A stretch of 63,575 nucleotides of DNA from Methanocalculus taiwanensis. Lineage in GTDB: Archaea > Halobacteriota > Methanomicrobia > Methanomicrobiales > Methanocorpusculaceae. Below the pieces are notes generated by a model. That model did not search any database. It saw only the letters and a list, made by a program, of their open reading frames with translations, and had not been told where the DNA came from. The stretch spans positions 1 to 63,575 of the forward strand of contig NZ_VOTZ01000013.1 in assembly GCF_024372745.1 (NCBI RefSeq), given 5' to 3'. Below, in pieces: positions 30,144-37,119 of this stretch; position 1 is the first letter of the stretch; each line of letters starts with the position of its first letter. The position numbers were made by a program, and so were the translations under genes.

Positions 30144-30935
30144 ATGAAATCCGCTCTTCGTGCATGGTGTGACAGCCATGAGATACCGCTCCTTGGCATA
30201 GCTGATGTAGATGCCTGGAATGAACCGCTCTTTGAAACGTGGATCCCAGAAGCGTATCGTCCCGGCTCGATTGCTCCCGGAACACGGTCGGTCATTGTCA
30301 TAGGCCTTCCAGTACCGCTCCCCTCGCTTGAATCATCCCCCTCGATCCAGTATAGGGAGATGTACAGGACAGTGAACACGCTCCTCGATCAATACACCTA
30401 CCGGATTGCAGTACGGCTGAACCAGTCCGGGTATCCGTCGGTTCCCATCCCGCGGGACGGGTATGGCGGTGTCGAGGCACTGGTAAAAAACCCGATCGCC
30501 TTCTTCTCGCACCGTCATGCTGCATACCTTGCAGGACTTGGGACATTCGGCCTCAATAATATGCTCCTCACCCCCGAATACGGACCAAGGGTGCGGTTTG
30601 GCTCGATCTTCACAACTGCTGATATTGAGCCTGATCCCATCCGGACTGATGATCTCTGCACACGGTGCATGGAATGTGTGGAGCGGTGCCCCGTCAAAGC
30701 AGTCAGGAAAGAAGGCTACCCTGAGGGTCTGACCAATAAAACCGCGTGTGCCAAATACAGTGCCATTCTGGATAAAAAAGCGATCTCACCGTGCGGTGTC
30801 TGTATCAAGGTCTGTCCGATCGGATCTGATCGCGCTTTCTATGGGCGGGATGATATTGGAATATACAGGGAGGATGCGGCTGATAGCCCGCTCAAAAAGG
30901 CATGGGATCACATCAGATCCCATGGTGCTCTCTAG
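30144..30935 (+). CDS. QueG-like iron-sulfur protein
   Basis: 263 residues. The N-terminal part resembles the corrinoid-binding half of epoxyqueuosine reductase (GLGTFGLNNMLLTPEYG, VRFGSIFT). Two 4Fe-4S motifs follow: LCTRCMECVERCP at about 173-185, and the pair AC...PCGVCIKVCP near 205-232. It lacks the C-terminal HEAT repeats of QueG. Archaea do not make queuosine in tRNA, so the reaction is probably different. It is last in the lonB run and its TAG stop overlaps the convergent KaiC-like stop. Confidence 0.75.
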   Translation: MKSALRAWCDSHEIPLLGIADVDAWNEPLFETWIPEAYRPGSIAPGTRSVIVIGLPVPLPSLESSPSIQYREMYRTVNTLLDQYTYRIAVRLNQSGYPSVPIPRDGYGGVEALVKNPIAFFSHRHAAYLAGLGTFGLNNMLLTPEYGPRVRFGSIFTTADIEPDPIRTDDLCTRCMECVERCPVKAVRKEGYPEGLTNKTACAKYSAILDKKAISPCGVCIKVCPIGSDRAFYGRDDIGIYREDAADSPLKKAWDHIRSHGAL

Positions 30936-31876
30936 AAGACGCTCGCCTCTGAATAGACGACCACATCATCAGGCTGGATCTCATATGGCTTGATCTCCCG
31001 GGAGTGCTGGGATCTCCGCATCTTGACCACCTCAACGGCAAGGTGGGTGCCAGAGAGATCGCTCGCACGTACATAGCGAAGCAGGATGACGCAGTCGACG
31101 AGGTACTCGACCAGCCCGTATTTGCTTGCATAAGGGATCTGGGTGTCGGTCTCACTTGTCATCACAAGCGTGCAATTCTCATCCCTCATTCGTTCGACGA
31201 ATTTGAACATCTCAAGCCTCCTGCTTGCCTCATCGGGAAGCAGCCCTTCAAATAGAGAGATCGGATCGATAACGACCCTTGATGCGTTTGTTTCCTGTAT
31301 AAGGGTGGGGATATCATTCTTGATGCTGTTGACGGCAAGAGTGAAATCTGTTGGATCGAGCTTGATTAAAAAGAAGGTTTTGTCAAGGTACTTATCAAGT
31401 TCATAGCCCCTCCGCCTGATACTCTCCATCAGCATCTCTGCCCGTTCATCCAGGCTGATCAGAATGCAGACCTCCCCCTGCTTCAACCCTTCAAAGATGA
31501 AATTGATCGCAAATGTCGTCTTTCCGGTACCATATGTCCCAATGATACCGGTGACAGAGTTTTGCACAAGTCCGCCGCCGAGCATCTCGTCAAGTCCTTC
31601 GATACCGAGCTTGATCCGCTGCTCGGTCCTTGTACTGGATCTCTTCACTTCAGCTGCTCTCTCATGTTCTGGCGGTTTGGGCATCTCTGTCATCTCATTC
31701 CGTAGCGGCTCCCACTCCTCCTCAGCAGGACTTTCCCATTCAGACTCTAAAGGTTCTGCCTGCTGGATTATGCTTCCCATTCGTGCTGGTGGCTTACCTG
31801 CCTGAATTGGAGGTATCTTCCTCATTGGCGGCTTTTTATTATCGTCGTCAATAAGTGCCGAGAAGTCATCCTCCAT
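30932..31876 (-). CDS. KaiC-like RecA-family ATPase with intact P-loop
   Basis: 314 residues. The first 85 are proline- and acid-rich and probably disordered. The KaiC-type core begins at KLGIEGLDEMLGGGL. Walker A GTYGTGKTTF lies near 110-119, the catalytic pair is in SLDERAEM and Walker B is RVVIDPISLF. It directly follows the P-loop-less relative (no gap), so both are made together. The pair diverges from a pilus-type motor, reminiscent of ArlH next to ArlI/ArlJ in archaella, but it is not ArlH by any clear mark. Confidence 0.82.
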   Translation of the reverse strand: MEDDFSALIDDDNKKPPMRKIPPIQAGKPPARMGSIIQQAEPLESEWESPAEEEWEPLRNEMTEMPKPPEHERAAEVKRSSTRTEQRIKLGIEGLDEMLGGGLVQNSVTGIIGTYGTGKTTFAINFIFEGLKQGEVCILISLDERAEMLMESIRRRGYELDKYLDKTFFLIKLDPTDFTLAVNSIKNDIPTLIQETNASRVVIDPISLFEGLLPDEASRRLEMFKFVERMRDENCTLVMTSETDTQIPYASKYGLVEYLVDCVILLRYVRASDLSGTHLAVEVVKMRRSQHSREIKPYEIQPDDVVVYSEASVF

Positions 31877-32707
31877 CTAAATCACCATCCGAATATTCTC
31901 AACATCAAACCCGGCTGATGCACTGATCCGAACCGCGAACTTCACCAGATCGCGCTCCTCAAGGTACGGCATCACTCCGCGGAACTTCATGAAATACATG
32001 ATCCTCTGCCTCCGTTGTCCGGATCCCTCCTCCCATTTGAAGTGGACAACTGCATCTGCACAGTCACAGATCTCAAGTTCACGCGATGAATCGAGGATCC
32101 CTTTTGTGAGGTGAAGGTATATTGTCGAGTTCCAGGTCTTTGCAATCCGCTGAAGACCCCTGAGGAATGCAACCAGGCTGTTCCATTTATCAGGGCTAAA
32201 ATGAAGTCCCGCGATATCGGTGAGAGAGTCGATGATAATGAGGCTCTCATGCTTTCCTTCCTCAAGCACGCCAATGAGATCGGCCAGGATACTGTCATGC
32301 TCGGGTTTCTTCCGCTGCATCCGGGCGACGATGCCCCCCTCTCCATCATACCAGTTAGCAGGGACGACACTTCTGTCGAAGTATCCGCTTGAGAGATCCA
32401 GAAAAGTGACACGGTCTGCAATCCCGGCAGTCAGATCACTCTTGAAGGATCGGTTTATCTCCTGGGTTACATCTTCTTTTGTCCTGGTAATGCTGATGTA
32501 CCGGATATCTTCCGGAATCATTCTTCCTGCACCTGCATCCTTTCCCATCCTGGTTAATGTAATGAGTGAGGTGTATGCAAACTCGGCACTGCCTGCACCG
32601 ATATCGGAGAGCAGCAGGATGAGGGATCCCGGTACGACCCCTCCGTTTAATACCGGGTCAAGTGAGTTGATCCCTGTAGGCATCCTGCCTCTGGTCTGAT
32701 CAGCCAT
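31877..32707 (-). CDS. KaiC-like protein with degenerate P-loop
   Basis: 276 residues of the same fold (PTGINSLDPVLNGGVVPGSLILLL), but the Walker A position reads SDIGAGSAEF: the lysine and the threonine/serine that hold ATP phosphates are gone. The Walker B-like LIIIDSLTDIAGL remains. It is therefore likely unable to hydrolyse ATP and may regulate its neighbour. It starts after a good ribosome site (ggagag). It is the first gene of the two-gene unit and diverges from the secretion ATPase. Confidence 0.78.
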   Translation of the reverse strand: MADQTRGRMPTGINSLDPVLNGGVVPGSLILLLSDIGAGSAEFAYTSLITLTRMGKDAGAGRMIPEDIRYISITRTKEDVTQEINRSFKSDLTAGIADRVTFLDLSSGYFDRSVVPANWYDGEGGIVARMQRKKPEHDSILADLIGVLEEGKHESLIIIDSLTDIAGLHFSPDKWNSLVAFLRGLQRIAKTWNSTIYLHLTKGILDSSRELEICDCADAVVHFKWEEGSGQRRQRIMYFMKFRGVMPYLEERDLVKFAVRISASAGFDVENIRMVI

Positions 32708-32830
32708 ACATCATCTCTCCATTATAAGAATAAGATTATGTCGTATCCTCTCGTGCATAAGGTATATCTCTTCTCCGTGTGAGGTAACCAATAACGCTCA
32801 TTCGATCAATTCTGCTCGTTGGGGTTTTCT

Positions 32831-35179
32831 ATGGAGGACAAAGAAGAAAAGCAGCAGGAAGGCCGGGATCTTTTTGCTCCGGACAGTGATCACTTCGGAT
32901 CACAAAAGAAAGAAAAGAAGAAATCTTCGGGCTTTCTTTCATTTTTTAAGAGAAAAAAAGATTCGGAGAGATCCGTCGCTGTAACCAACCCCTGGGATAA
33001 TGCCCCTGTCTCAGATTCGTGGCATAAGACGCTTCCTGGTACCGCTGAAGAAGAACCGCTGGATTCGGCTGTTCCAAATACAGATGCGCGTATGTCTCCC
33101 GGTTTCTGGAACTCCCCGATGACGGGGCCGGCAGATGAGGCTGAATATATAGCGGCGGGTACTGGCGAAGACGGGGATAAGTCTTCGTATAAAGAGCCAT
33201 TGGATATGTCGGATCAGGAGATGCTGCCTTCAGATGGAATTCCTCCCTCCTTTGGAGGAGGTGAAGACGATACTGCCGATCCTGAATCTGTGTCTGTTGT
33301 CCGTGAAGAGAGCCTGGAAACTCCATTGCAGGATGAAGCAGAAATATCGCCCACCGAGGAGCGATTACTGGCTGATGAAAGCGAATCGCCTGTTGCTGAT
33401 TTTGGAATTGATCTCACGAAGCCTGATGATGACACGCTTGATCGTCCTGTCCCCTCAATATCGGATTTAGATGATAAACGCGTGCCGGATACATCTGCCT
33501 ATCCTGTGGAGGCCGTTTCATCCCATGAACAATCGGTATTGCCGTTTGAAACGAAAGATCCCGTTTCTGCTGCCCCACCTAAGGATCAGGTTCCCGAACG
33601 CCGGTCATTACTATCCGTTTTCCGAAAAAAGGAAGCAGATCTGGTAGTGCCTGAATATAATTTCGAAACCGCAGATCCGCTTGTCTCCCCCAGTCTTGCC
33701 GAGAATGAAGAGGAGGTTGATAGTTACTGGATTGAAAAAGGATTCTCGCTTGTCCTGATCACCTATAATCGGGTGACCCGGCTGAAAGAGTACCACCTGT
33801 TTGAACCCGTACTGACCCGTTTTGAATATGAACTCCTTGAACGGCTCTATGAAGATCTCCGCGACATTCTCATCCTCACGGATTCGGAGATCCGGGAGAA
33901 ACCGGAGCTGCTTCTCTTCAGAAAGGCAGAAGCGCTCATCAGCCAGTACGGGCTCAACCTTGCCCCGGAGACGATGTATAAGCTGAGGTACTATCTGAAA
34001 CGGAATTTCCTCGGGTGGTCGCGAATCGATCCATTGATGAAAGACCTCGAGATAGAGGATATCTCGTGTGATGGCCATGGAATCCCTCTTTTCCTCTACC
34101 ATCGACAGCATCGGAATATCAGGACAAATATCCAGTTTCCTGAACAGCAGTTAAACTCGCTGGCAATATCACTTGCACAGCGATCAGGCAAACATATCTC
34201 GATCGGAAACCCGATCCTTGATGCCACCCTCCCGGATGGCTCCCGTCTCCAGCTTACTCTTGGAACAGAGGTGACGAGCAGGGGTTCATCCTTTACGATC
34301 AGGAAGTTCCGCCCCGAGCCATTCACCCCTATCGAACTGATGGAGAAGGGGACATTCAATGTTGACCAGCTTGTCTACTTCTGGCTTGCAATCGAGAACA
34401 ACAAGAGCCTGATTTTTATCGGGGGCACGGCATCCGGGAAGACTTCATCTTTGAATGCGATGTCCCTTTTCATACCGCCGCTTGCAAAAGTCGTCTCTAT
34501 TGAGGATACCCGTGAGATCATGCTGTACCGGGAGAACTGGATAGCAAGCGTCACCCGTGAATCCCTCACAGCAGAAGGGAGCCGGAGCATCAGTATGTTT
34601 GACCTCCTCAAGGCAGGTATGCGGCAGAGGCCCGAGTATATTATTGTCGGAGAAGTGAGGGGCCCGGAGGCGCAGACCCTCTTCCAGGCGATGAATACAG
34701 GTCATACCACTTACTCGACGATGCATGCAGGAGGTGTGGATGCAACCATCCACCGTCTTGAGAGTGAACCCTTAAACGTGCCCCGTAATATGCTTCAGGC
34801 GCTAAATATCATATCGTTCCAGAGTATGATATTCCGTGGTTCCGAGCGGGTCAGGCGTTGCCAGGAGGTCGTTGAGATTACCGGTATCGAGCCGAATTCC
34901 GGGAACATTCTCGTGAATAATGTCTTTGAATATGATCCGATCTCAGATGAGATGAGGTACTCAGGCAGATCACATGTATACTCTGCTATCGCCGCAAACC
35001 GCGGATGGAGCAGGGAAGAACTCCAGGCTGAGGTCGGAAAACGCCGCCAGGTGATCCTCGCACTCCATGAACAGGATATCAGGGATTTCAAATCCGTATC
35101 CGAGATCTTCTCGATATTTGCAATCACCCCTGATGTTATATTTGAGCATATCGATGATCTCAGCCAGGTACTCTCATGA
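32831..35179 (+). CDS. type II/IV secretion (pilus) ATPase, GspE/FlaI type
   Basis: 782 residues from the ATG at 32831 (a TTG at 32819 would add four). Residues 1 to about 285 are an acidic, low-complexity tail framed by two basic-aromatic spots, FLSFFKRKK and LLSVFRKKE. The motor follows: Walker A GGTASGKTSS near 530, Walker B with YIIVGEVRGPEA and the histidine box TGHTTYSTMHAGG. It powers assembly of a pilus- or archaellum-like fibre. Its stop overlaps the start of the membrane partner (atga). No archaellum accessory genes are adjacent, so a type IV pilus is more likely than an archaellum. Confidence 0.88.
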   Translation: MEDKEEKQQEGRDLFAPDSDHFGSQKKEKKKSSGFLSFFKRKKDSERSVAVTNPWDNAPVSDSWHKTLPGTAEEEPLDSAVPNTDARMSPGFWNSPMTGPADEAEYIAAGTGEDGDKSSYKEPLDMSDQEMLPSDGIPPSFGGGEDDTADPESVSVVREESLETPLQDEAEISPTEERLLADESESPVADFGIDLTKPDDDTLDRPVPSISDLDDKRVPDTSAYPVEAVSSHEQSVLPFETKDPVSAAPPKDQVPERRSLLSVFRKKEADLVVPEYNFETADPLVSPSLAENEEEVDSYWIEKGFSLVLITYNRVTRLKEYHLFEPVLTRFEYELLERLYEDLRDILILTDSEIREKPELLLFRKAEALISQYGLNLAPETMYKLRYYLKRNFLGWSRIDPLMKDLEIEDISCDGHGIPLFLYHRQHRNIRTNIQFPEQQLNSLAISLAQRSGKHISIGNPILDATLPDGSRLQLTLGTEVTSRGSSFTIRKFRPEPFTPIELMEKGTFNVDQLVYFWLAIENNKSLIFIGGTASGKTSSLNAMSLFIPPLAKVVSIEDTREIMLYRENWIASVTRESLTAEGSRSISMFDLLKAGMRQRPEYIIVGEVRGPEAQTLFQAMNTGHTTYSTMHAGGVDATIHRLESEPLNVPRNMLQALNIISFQSMIFRGSERVRRCQEVVEITGIEPNSGNILVNNVFEYDPISDEMRYSGRSHVYSAIAANRGWSREELQAEVGKRRQVILALHEQDIRDFKSVSEIFSIFAITPDVIFEHIDDLSQVLS

Positions 35180-37119
35180 TCCCGATGTATGAACGGTTTC
35201 GGCGTCTCTCAAGGCGGGATCCGATGCGTTTCCAGCACCTCCGGAACGACATCATATCAGCACGCCTTGGTATCACCGTCGAGCGGCTCTACTATTACGC
35301 TTTCGTCTTCGGTATTGGGATTGGAACTGCAATAGGTTTTTTATTCTTCTTTATCGCCGGTATCTTCAAGCCGATAGTCATCCCCCAGGCTGCATATGAA
35401 TTCACCAGGCAGAACAGGATCTCGATACCGTTTCTGGCTGAACTTCCGCTTGAAGACCTCCTCTTCAGGGCGTTTATTGCAGCCATTGTCTTCATCATCT
35501 TCGCCTATATCACCTATCGTATCGTCCTGGCTTTCCCCGGCTTGATGAAGTCTTCCCGTGCAACCAGGATCAACCTGACCCTCCATAACGCGGTTGCGTA
35601 TATGTATGCGATGCGGAGGGGTGGGGCTGAACTGATCGAGATCTTCCGCTCGCTCTCAGAGAACTCGCATGTCTATGGTGAGGTGGCGCTGGAGTTTCGG
35701 CAGGTTGTCAGGGACTGTGATCTCTTTGCCCATGATATCGTCTCTGCCCTCCGCGAACTCCAGATGACAACTCCATCTGCCAAGATGAAGGACTTCATTC
35801 AGGATCTCCTCTCCATCATTGAGAGCGGCGGCGATCTCTCCGGCTTTTTAAAGGCGAAAGTGAGCCTGTACCAGGATGAGGCAAAATTTGAGCAGAAACA
35901 GTTCTTAAATACTCTCTCTCTGGTTGCAGAGGGGTATGTCACCCTCTTTGTGGCTGGCCCCCTGTTTTTGATCATTGTGATGGTGGTGATGGGAATGATG
36001 GGGCCGGGTGCCCTTATGCAGCTGAATATTGTCATCTACGCGTTAATTCCAATCGGAACAGCGATATTTGTCGTCTTCATCGATATGATCTCATCCCAGC
36101 CCGAGAGCGTGGAACGGTACACCTTTATCCAGGAGCTGCACGAGTTTCCGGATGTTCTGATCAAGGAGGCTGAAGAAACTGCAGAGAAGGGGCTAATCGC
36201 TGCATTGAAAAGATATGATCGGTGGACAAATATCCGTGAGTTCATCTCCGATCCGCTCCATTACTTCCTGATCCTCCCACACCGAACCTTCTATTTCTCG
36301 GTTCCGGTTGGTATCATCTATCTTGTTTATTGGTATTTCCAGATCCCCGATTATGGCGATTATGAGTTTTACCTTACTGTCCTTGACGACTACATTATCG
36401 CCACATTCCTGATCTTCTTTGTCCCTTATGCGATAGCACAGCTGATATGGAGCCGTAGAATTGGTGATATCGAGGCATCGCTCCCGGATTTCCTCCAGAG
36501 GCTTGCCGGGATCAATGAAGTAGGTCTAACCATTGCAAAGGCCCTCTCCATCCTGGTCAGAACCAATCTTGGTCTTCTGAGTTATGAGATCAAAAAGATC
36601 AAGCGCGATCTCGAATGGGGATCAAATGTCGAGGATGCTCTTGTCCGTTTTGAAGAGCGACTCTCGACACCATCAATTTCGCGTACAGTGACGCTGATCA
36701 CCAGAGCAAGTGCAATGAGCGGTGAGATCGGCCAGGTGCTCACCATCGCAGCAAGTGATGCTGATATGAGCGAGACACTCAAAAGGGAGCGGCAGGGGGA
36801 GATGTTCCTCTACACCGCCGTCGTCTACCTTGCATTCTTCGTCTTCATCTTTGTGGTTCTTGTGATTGGAACACAGTTCCTCCCTGTCATCGAGATGACT
36901 GATGCATCCGCTGCATCCATGAGCGGCGCCGGGGCTTTCTCAAGCGTTGGAGGCATATCTGCTCTAACCTACGGCCGCCTCTTCTACCACGCGGTCATCA
37001 TCCAGGCGATCTGTTCAGGACTCATCGCTGGTCTGATGGGTGAGTCGTCGTTAGCTGCCGGTGTGAAACATGCCTGCATTATGGTATTTGTGGCATTTGT
37101 GATCTTCGCCTTGATCTGA
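35176..37119 (+). CDS. FlaJ/TadC-type membrane platform protein
   Basis: 647 residues holding two type II secretion F domains: the first around FRSLSENSHVYGEVALEF to AKFEQKQFLNTL, and the second around LPDFLQRLAGINEVG to TLKRERQGEM. Several membrane helices flank each domain (about 38-60, 90-112, 250-305, 370-425 and a C-terminal group after 540). It is the inner-membrane base for the ATPase upstream, with which it overlaps by 4 bases. No pilin gene is adjacent; a pilin-like gene occurs at 49758. Confidence 0.88.
   Translation: MIPMYERFRRLSRRDPMRFQHLRNDIISARLGITVERLYYYAFVFGIGIGTAIGFLFFFIAGIFKPIVIPQAAYEFTRQNRISIPFLAELPLEDLLFRAFIAAIVFIIFAYITYRIVLAFPGLMKSSRATRINLTLHNAVAYMYAMRRGGAELIEIFRSLSENSHVYGEVALEFRQVVRDCDLFAHDIVSALRELQMTTPSAKMKDFIQDLLSIIESGGDLSGFLKAKVSLYQDEAKFEQKQFLNTLSLVAEGYVTLFVAGPLFLIIVMVVMGMMGPGALMQLNIVIYALIPIGTAIFVVFIDMISSQPESVERYTFIQELHEFPDVLIKEAEETAEKGLIAALKRYDRWTNIREFISDPLHYFLILPHRTFYFSVPVGIIYLVYWYFQIPDYGDYEFYLTVLDDYIIATFLIFFVPYAIAQLIWSRRIGDIEASLPDFLQRLAGINEVGLTIAKALSILVRTNLGLLSYEIKKIKRDLEWGSNVEDALVRFEERLSTPSISRTVTLITRASAMSGEIGQVLTIAASDADMSETLKRERQGEMFLYTAVVYLAFFVFIFVVLVIGTQFLPVIEMTDASAASMSGAGAFSSVGGISALTYGRLFYHAVIIQAICSGLIAGLMGESSLAAGVKHACIMVFVAFVIFALI

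Follow-up and report, generated by a model that had tools for sequence, protein, structure and literature searches.

A KaiC-like protein pair with one dead ATP site beside a type IV pilus-type motor in Methanomicrobiales

Why would an archaeon keep a KaiC-like protein whose P-loop has decayed, and keep it next to an intact relative and opposite the genes for a pilus motor? The question is raised by a contig of 63,575 bases (contig C13; "the window" means this whole stretch) from a genome of 2.34 Mb that is 99.86% complete. The closest loci are from Methanocalculus, in the order Methanomicrobiales. Two genes on the reverse strand encode KaiC-like proteins. We call the first-transcribed one DEAD (protein P0001, 31877..32707, 276 amino acids; it is 93% identical to the protein from Methanocalculus sp. 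UBA9912) and the second one ACT (protein P0002, 30932..31876, 314 amino acids). The motor genes are divergent from them, on the forward strand. A first, sequence-only reading of the window had suggested that the two proteins might be a two-part nucleotide switch for a type IV pilus. We found that the feature is real and conserved, and that the two-part KaiC unit is well supported. What it does is less certain. Our main reading, to which we give a probability of about 0.5, is that DEAD and ACT form an obligate hetero-oligomeric complex, similar to KaiC or ArlH, that serves the divergent PilB-type motor in Methanomicrobiales and their relatives.

Our strongest result is that DEAD and ACT are inherited together with near-perfect regularity. 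We scanned 345 genomes of the phylum and scored the two families separately (E ≤1e-25 for the DEAD profile and E ≤1e-44 for TIGR03880, the family of ACT). With these thresholds, which were chosen after the gaps in the scores had been seen, and in a set of genomes that are related to each other, 158 genomes have both proteins, none has DEAD alone, 3 have ACT alone (weak matches, below the family's cut-off), and 184 have neither. Physical hitch-hiking is not the reason for this co-inheritance, because DEAD and ACT are unlinked in haloarchaea, which account for roughly one in three of the genomes that scored positive. (Where a single contig carries both genes, as in 20 haloarchaea, 97 kb to more than 1 Mb separates them.) Without functional dependence, it is hard to account for the lack of any genome with DEAD alone. 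Outside of the haloarchaea, ACT directly adjoins DEAD in 142 of 146 loci, and in 75 of these 142 the stop and start codons overlap as ATGA. In the window, the two genes abut with a spacing of zero (32707..31877, then 31876..30932), as the sequence-only reading had stated. We did not see any natural fusions of DEAD and ACT among the frames of the relatives; the long frames that might have been fusions are merely stop-to-stop frames. Overall, we think it quite likely that DEAD and ACT act as one unit, and the two-part nature that was proposed from the window extends across the phylum.

We then asked what DEAD has lost and what it has kept. In place of Walker A it has SDIGAGSAEF, and its catalytic glutamates are lost, but the Walker B aspartate (D160) and a K241-x-R243 motif are kept. 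The Walker A lysine is missing from 165 of the 172 distinct DEAD proteins. The exceptions are 7 proteins of the Methanospirillum type, which retain the lysine but lose the threonine that follows it. (In L104 and L126, of the Methanospirillum stamsii type, the motif is GSGKNEF. Either the decay is less advanced here or there has been a reversion.) More broadly, a G-x-G-x-x-E-F signature has replaced the P-loop, the catalytic acid pair has been replaced as well, and the Walker B aspartate is present in all 172 proteins. DEAD is under strong purifying selection: its ratio of nonsynonymous to synonymous substitution rates (dN/dS), when compared to five Methanocalculus loci, is about 0.05-0.07, which is below or close to the values for ACT and the motor genes. 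The loss of the glutamates, the retention of the Walker B aspartate, the purifying selection, and a conserved fifth gene (described below) were not part of the sequence-only reading.

As judged from its predicted structure, DEAD is a remote relative of KaiC, with a fold like that of KaiC or ArlH. The best match of its AlphaFold model (predicted local distance difference test, or pLDDT, of 86; predicted template modelling score, or pTM, of 0.86) in the PDB is ArlH/FlaH from Sulfolobus acidocaldarius (4yds; E = 6.8e-14), and the CI domain of KaiC is close behind. A search of solved structures with the DEAD protein alone gave no match. At the sequence level, DEAD scores 24.3 bits against Pfam's KaiC family (PF06745), whose gathering cut-off is 26.6, and relatives of DEAD exceed this cut-off (53 bits for the Methanocella type and 29-37 bits for haloarchaeal proteins). 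The C-terminal half of DEAD is weakly similar to the ArlH model (24-49 bits across the relatives).

As for ACT, it belongs to NCBIfam's TIGR03880 (KaiC_arch_3), with a score of 309.4 bits and a cut-off of 249.45. In the window, its motifs are intact: it has GTYGTGKTT for Walker A, the catalytic acids in LDE, and a KMR finger. The Walker A lysine (K119) is present in 133 of 133 ACT proteins outside of Methanocorpusculum. ACT from the window also has an acidic and proline-rich N-terminal extension of about 85 amino acids, which is missing from most of its relatives. (A QueG/iron-sulfur-like gene at 30144-30935, on the forward strand, converges on ACT, and the 3' ends of the two genes overlap by 4 bases.) In Haloferax volcanii, the ortholog of ACT is probably CirB, to judge from two short peptides: the published quantitative PCR primers for cirB (PMC3941300) translate to VYITLE and YELTNE, which resemble haloarchaeal ACT. 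The abundance of CirB in H. volcanii responds to conditioned medium (PMC12240190).

The residues that DEAD retains suggest how the two proteins might work together. Columns 241-243 of DEAD align with the K-x-R of KaiC's CI domain (K224/R226). In KaiC, Lys224 and Arg226 reach the gamma-phosphate from the adjacent subunit (PDB:4TL7; PMC9599734). Among DEAD proteins from the lineages where the pair is linked, position 241 is lysine or arginine in 145 of 146. Since DEAD lacks an ATP site of its own, the finger has no use in a homomer, and its retention suggests that DEAD's finger may serve the ATP site of ACT.

Is the neighboring motor for a pilus or for an archaellum? The sequence-only reading had described the pair as divergent from a FlaI/FlaJ-type motor. 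The divergence stands, but the label does not. The ATPase (T2SSE; 32819..35179, forward strand) is of the PilB type, not ArlI, and has a long acidic N-terminal region. The TadC/PilC-type platform protein (35176..37119, forward strand, 647 amino acids) has two T2SSF domains. The T2SSE and T2SSF domains are over the Pfam cut-offs, at 104.5 and 105.8 bits, but the ATPase scores only 376.7 bits against the FlaI model, whose cut-off is 550. Also, a phylogenetic tree sets this ATPase apart from the genome's own ArlI. The genome has a complete archaellum operon on contig C4, with archaellins, ArlH (with the motif GENDTGKSV), ArlI, and ArlJ, which rules out that the pair and the motor are this genome's ArlH and ArlI. 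DEAD and ACT score 24.4 and 42.1 bits against NCBIfam's ArlH and do not reach the cut-off of 215. Beside the window's motor, we found no archaellin-like gene, no ArlF, and no ArlG. The genome also encodes a paralogous pilus ATPase, on contig C5, and pilin-like genes, on contigs C15 and C17. PilB3 from Haloferax is described as using pilins in trans (PMC4858521). Given the pilin-like genes elsewhere in the genome, the motor in the window presumably uses pilins in trans too.

We have several pieces of evidence that tie the pair to this motor in Methanomicrobiales. First, DEAD is present in 99 of 150 Methanomicrobiales genomes, and in 88 of those 99, the orthologous motor is adjacent and divergent. 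The sequence-only reading had proposed checking whether the four genes stay together across this order, and by and large they do. The 11 exceptions comprise three contig breaks (G107, G121, and G131), one genome that is 70% complete and has just a gene fragment (G134), and seven genomes of Methanocorpusculum, in which the pair persists and a motor is located elsewhere. In a tree that included two of these Methanocorpusculum genomes, the moved motor is the sister of the adjacent motors from Methanocorpusculum; for these two genomes, loss of the motor is ruled out, as it is present elsewhere.

Second, in this order the motor is present or absent along with the pair. The best motor match has E = 1e-154 or stronger in genomes with the pair and about 1e-147 or weaker, which is the level of paralogous motors, in Methanomicrobiales without it, where presence or absence is a score criterion and only some of the genomes were placed in trees. 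(A strong motor match is likewise missing from G131 and G134, two incomplete genomes that have the pair.) At least five genera (g2, g6, g11, g13, and g28) include genomes of both states, which implies more than one joint gain or loss of the four genes.

Third, the divergent arrangement of pair and motor is also found in loci of the Methanocella type (f14) and in f10, f18, f24, and f36 loci. In a tree that included the second motors of those genomes, all of the pair-adjacent motors lie outside of a supported clade (98/98) of paralogous motors, although the deeper order is poorly supported.

Some of our results weigh against the main reading, either for the motor or for the finger. There is no adjacent motor in Archaeoglobaceae (0 of 17 loci), in haloarchaea (0 of 26), or in some of the f18- and f36-type loci, and Methanosarcina-type genomes carry similar motors without the pair. 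The Archaeoglobaceae pairs without a motor and the Methanosarcina-type motors without a pair rule out a strict dependence between the two across the phylum. The sequence-only reading had been staked on the pair not being common away from pilus motors. That expectation fails for Archaeoglobaceae (17 of 17 loci), for the seven Methanocorpusculum, and for haloarchaea, but it holds for 88 of the 99 Methanomicrobiales. In other words, the link to the motor is lineage-specific, not universal. As for the finger, K241 is kept in just 1 of 26 haloarchaeal DEAD proteins (13 have glutamate, 10 have glutamine, and 2 have serine), even though ACT is present, so the finger is not required everywhere. (A missing ACT does not explain this loss: 12 of 12 haloarchaea have the TIGR03880 gene elsewhere in the genome, and the two co-occur throughout.) R243 of DEAD is lost in Archaeoglobaceae and in Methanocorpusculum. 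In Methanocorpusculum, the Walker A lysine of ACT is also replaced by arginine, in 11 of 11 proteins (L073-L083), and the catalytic acids are mostly lost, so this genus may be able to do without ATP hydrolysis. A caveat for all of these residue counts is that the sequences share descent, so the counts are not of independent events.

Several other arrangements of these genes and of other KaiC-like genes turned up in the loci that we compared. At an Archaeoglobus fulgidus-type locus (L225:6310-8999), four KaiC-like genes follow one another, in this order: one with an intact P-loop, one that lacks the P-loop half of the protein, one from the DEAD family, and one from TIGR03880. In two genomes of about 1 Mb, a different KaiC-like protein, whose P-loop is completely gone, is encoded directly after the TadC of a paralogous motor (L334:4581-5273 and L339:12150-12857). 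This is apparently an independent instance of a dead KaiC beside a pilus motor. We found no TIGR03880 partner above the cut-off in these two genomes. A Methanosarcina-type genome that lacks the pair has another KaiC, an active one (L330:11068-11766), immediately upstream of its pilus motor and in line with it. In haloarchaea, DEAD heads a conserved set of genes (L218:5062-7515 and other loci) that encode a coiled-coil/zinc protein of about 305 amino acids and a 171-amino-acid protein, upstream of transcription factor S.

How might the complex of our main reading work? ArlH offers a precedent: it binds ATP without hydrolyzing it, assembles into a hexamer, modulates ArlI, and is released by its autophosphorylation (PMC8978795). 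We infer that DEAD and ACT form a hetero-oligomer in which ACT, with its intact motifs, binds and probably hydrolyzes ATP. DEAD would not be able to bind nucleotides normally at its own P-loop and would be retained for a structural role and for its action in trans on its partner. In the lineages where the genes are linked, the K-x-R finger of DEAD would be inserted into its neighbor's ATP site. In Methanomicrobiales, in Methanocella, and in some relatives, the complex would be dedicated to the PilB-type ATPase and TadC. There it most likely would dock on the ring of the ATPase and gate the assembly of pilins that are encoded elsewhere, by analogy to ArlH and ArlI. By the same analogy, it is plausible that the pair is a pilus switch, which leaves the proposal of the sequence-only reading standing, if less firmly. 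A bolder version would hold for the entire phylum: an obligate mixed ring of two KaiC subunits, with one ATP site intact and the other dead and finger-donating, would be the equivalent of ArlH for non-archaellar pilus motors, and DEAD would set the number or the asymmetry of active sites. We hold this version only tentatively and consider it rather unlikely.

Alternatively, the pair could be a general KaiC-type signaling module (a sensor or oscillator, or a regulator of transcription or of cell shape) that in some lineages merely lies beside the motor. Pili would then be affected only indirectly, if at all, such as via the shared divergent promoter region. This would fit the pairs without an adjacent motor in Archaeoglobaceae, the unlinked genes of haloarchaea, the motors without a pair in Methanosarcina-type genomes, and the four consecutive KaiC-like genes at A. 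fulgidus-type loci. Also, the Haloferax KaiC homologs CirA and CirD affect motility and cell shape via gene expression (PMC13286277). But the joint presence or absence of the pair and one specific motor in at least five genera of Methanomicrobiales is a tighter link than we would expect of a general regulator, and the nearest fold to DEAD's model is ArlH, which is a motor component. A general signaling role is possible, but we consider it somewhat unlikely.

Another explanation is that DEAD works independently of ACT, as a scaffold or a component of the motor without catalytic activity, and that ACT is a separate enzyme, so that the two share a pathway but not a complex. The separation of the genes in haloarchaea and the loss of K241 there could be explained in this way, and the P-loop-less gene after TadC in L334 and L339 has no TIGR03880 partner above the cut-off. 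Yet this scenario does not sit well with the near-perfect co-occurrence, with adjacent genes whose stop and start codons overlap, or with the near-invariance of K241 in the linked lineages, and we find it doubtful. Finally, that DEAD is a degenerating KaiC duplicate or a pseudogene, carried along by linkage, would account for its lost Walker A and catalytic residues, but this is contradicted by its low dN/dS and by its distribution (it is full length in many families of the phylum and never found without ACT), which leaves ordinary decay with next to no probability.

The rest of the locus is compact. The intergenic region between DEAD and the motor operon (32708..32818) is 111 bp long, or 124 bp if the ATPase starts at the ATG at 32832 instead of the TTG at 32819; the ATG is the likelier start. 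The ATPase and TadC genes overlap by 4 nucleotides. A fifth gene, P0005 (37294..37809, forward strand), lies downstream of TadC here and in most Methanomicrobiales loci. P0005 does not belong to any Pfam family, and its relatives (L085-L111) share an invariant RGTHP..Q motif. Its predicted structure is confident (pLDDT of 86), but a search of this fold against the PDB gave no match (best E = 0.14). Going by this model, P0005 may be an unrecognized fold or an accessory protein of the motor.

To our knowledge, little has been established about how archaea switch their pilus motors on and off outside of the archaellum, and no job has been assigned to most archaeal relatives of KaiC. Because 158 of 161 carrier genomes inherit DEAD and ACT jointly, the pair is a specific and testable unit, with K241 as the candidate residue and the adjacent ATPase as the possible client. 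There is also a natural series of lineages to compare: those with the motor adjacent, those where it has moved, and Methanocorpusculum, where the active site has decayed.

How do these proteins compare to known systems? Inactivated KaiC domains of archaeal signaling hubs were reportedly named "iKaiC," and proposed to be signaling partners, by Makarova, Galperin and Koonin in mBio in 2017. DEAD resembles these in that it has the KaiC fold and an inactivated ATPase site. (PMC5847659 credits the term to that 2017 paper.) The linkage of KaiC to pili in Methanomicrobia was already known from Makarova, Koonin and Albers (2016; PMC4858521), who place KaiC ATPases of arCOG01172 and arCOG01173 beside VirB11 and TadC and propose that they are regulators. 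Those are very probably the same loci as ours. The passages of that paper that our search covered do not describe the dead state of one gene, the obligate pairing, the phylum-wide co-inheritance, or the finger. In the literature that our search covered, partly as excerpts and with the 2017 iKaiC paper outside its range, we found no description of the obligate pairing of DEAD and ACT, of their phylum-wide co-inheritance, or of the retained finger.

ACT fits TIGR03880 by its score, by its single KaiC domain, and by its intact motifs, but that model is a "hypothetical equivalog" without a function and does not include the DEAD partner. Like PilB3/PilC3 of haloarchaea, the window's motor has an archaeal pilus ATPase of that family, a two-domain TadC, and no pilins in the locus. 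It differs in that its PilB3_N domain scores 20.6 bits, below the cut-off of 27, and the deep branching among these motors is poorly resolved. The cyanobacterial clock protein KaiC shares the fold, the Walker motifs, and a K-x-R finger that comes from the adjacent subunit, but it has two tandem domains per chain, whereas DEAD and ACT are separate single-domain chains (276 and 314 amino acids), one of which is catalytically dead. As with ArlH, which does not hydrolyze ATP, we see a single-domain KaiC/RecA fold encoded beside the genes for a pilus-family ATPase and platform, and ArlH is the best structural match for the DEAD model. Unlike ArlH, the window's system has two subunits, one of them without a P-loop; neither of them reaches the ArlH cut-off, no archaellins, ArlF, or ArlG are encoded beside the motor, and the genome has a separate ArlH for its archaellum.

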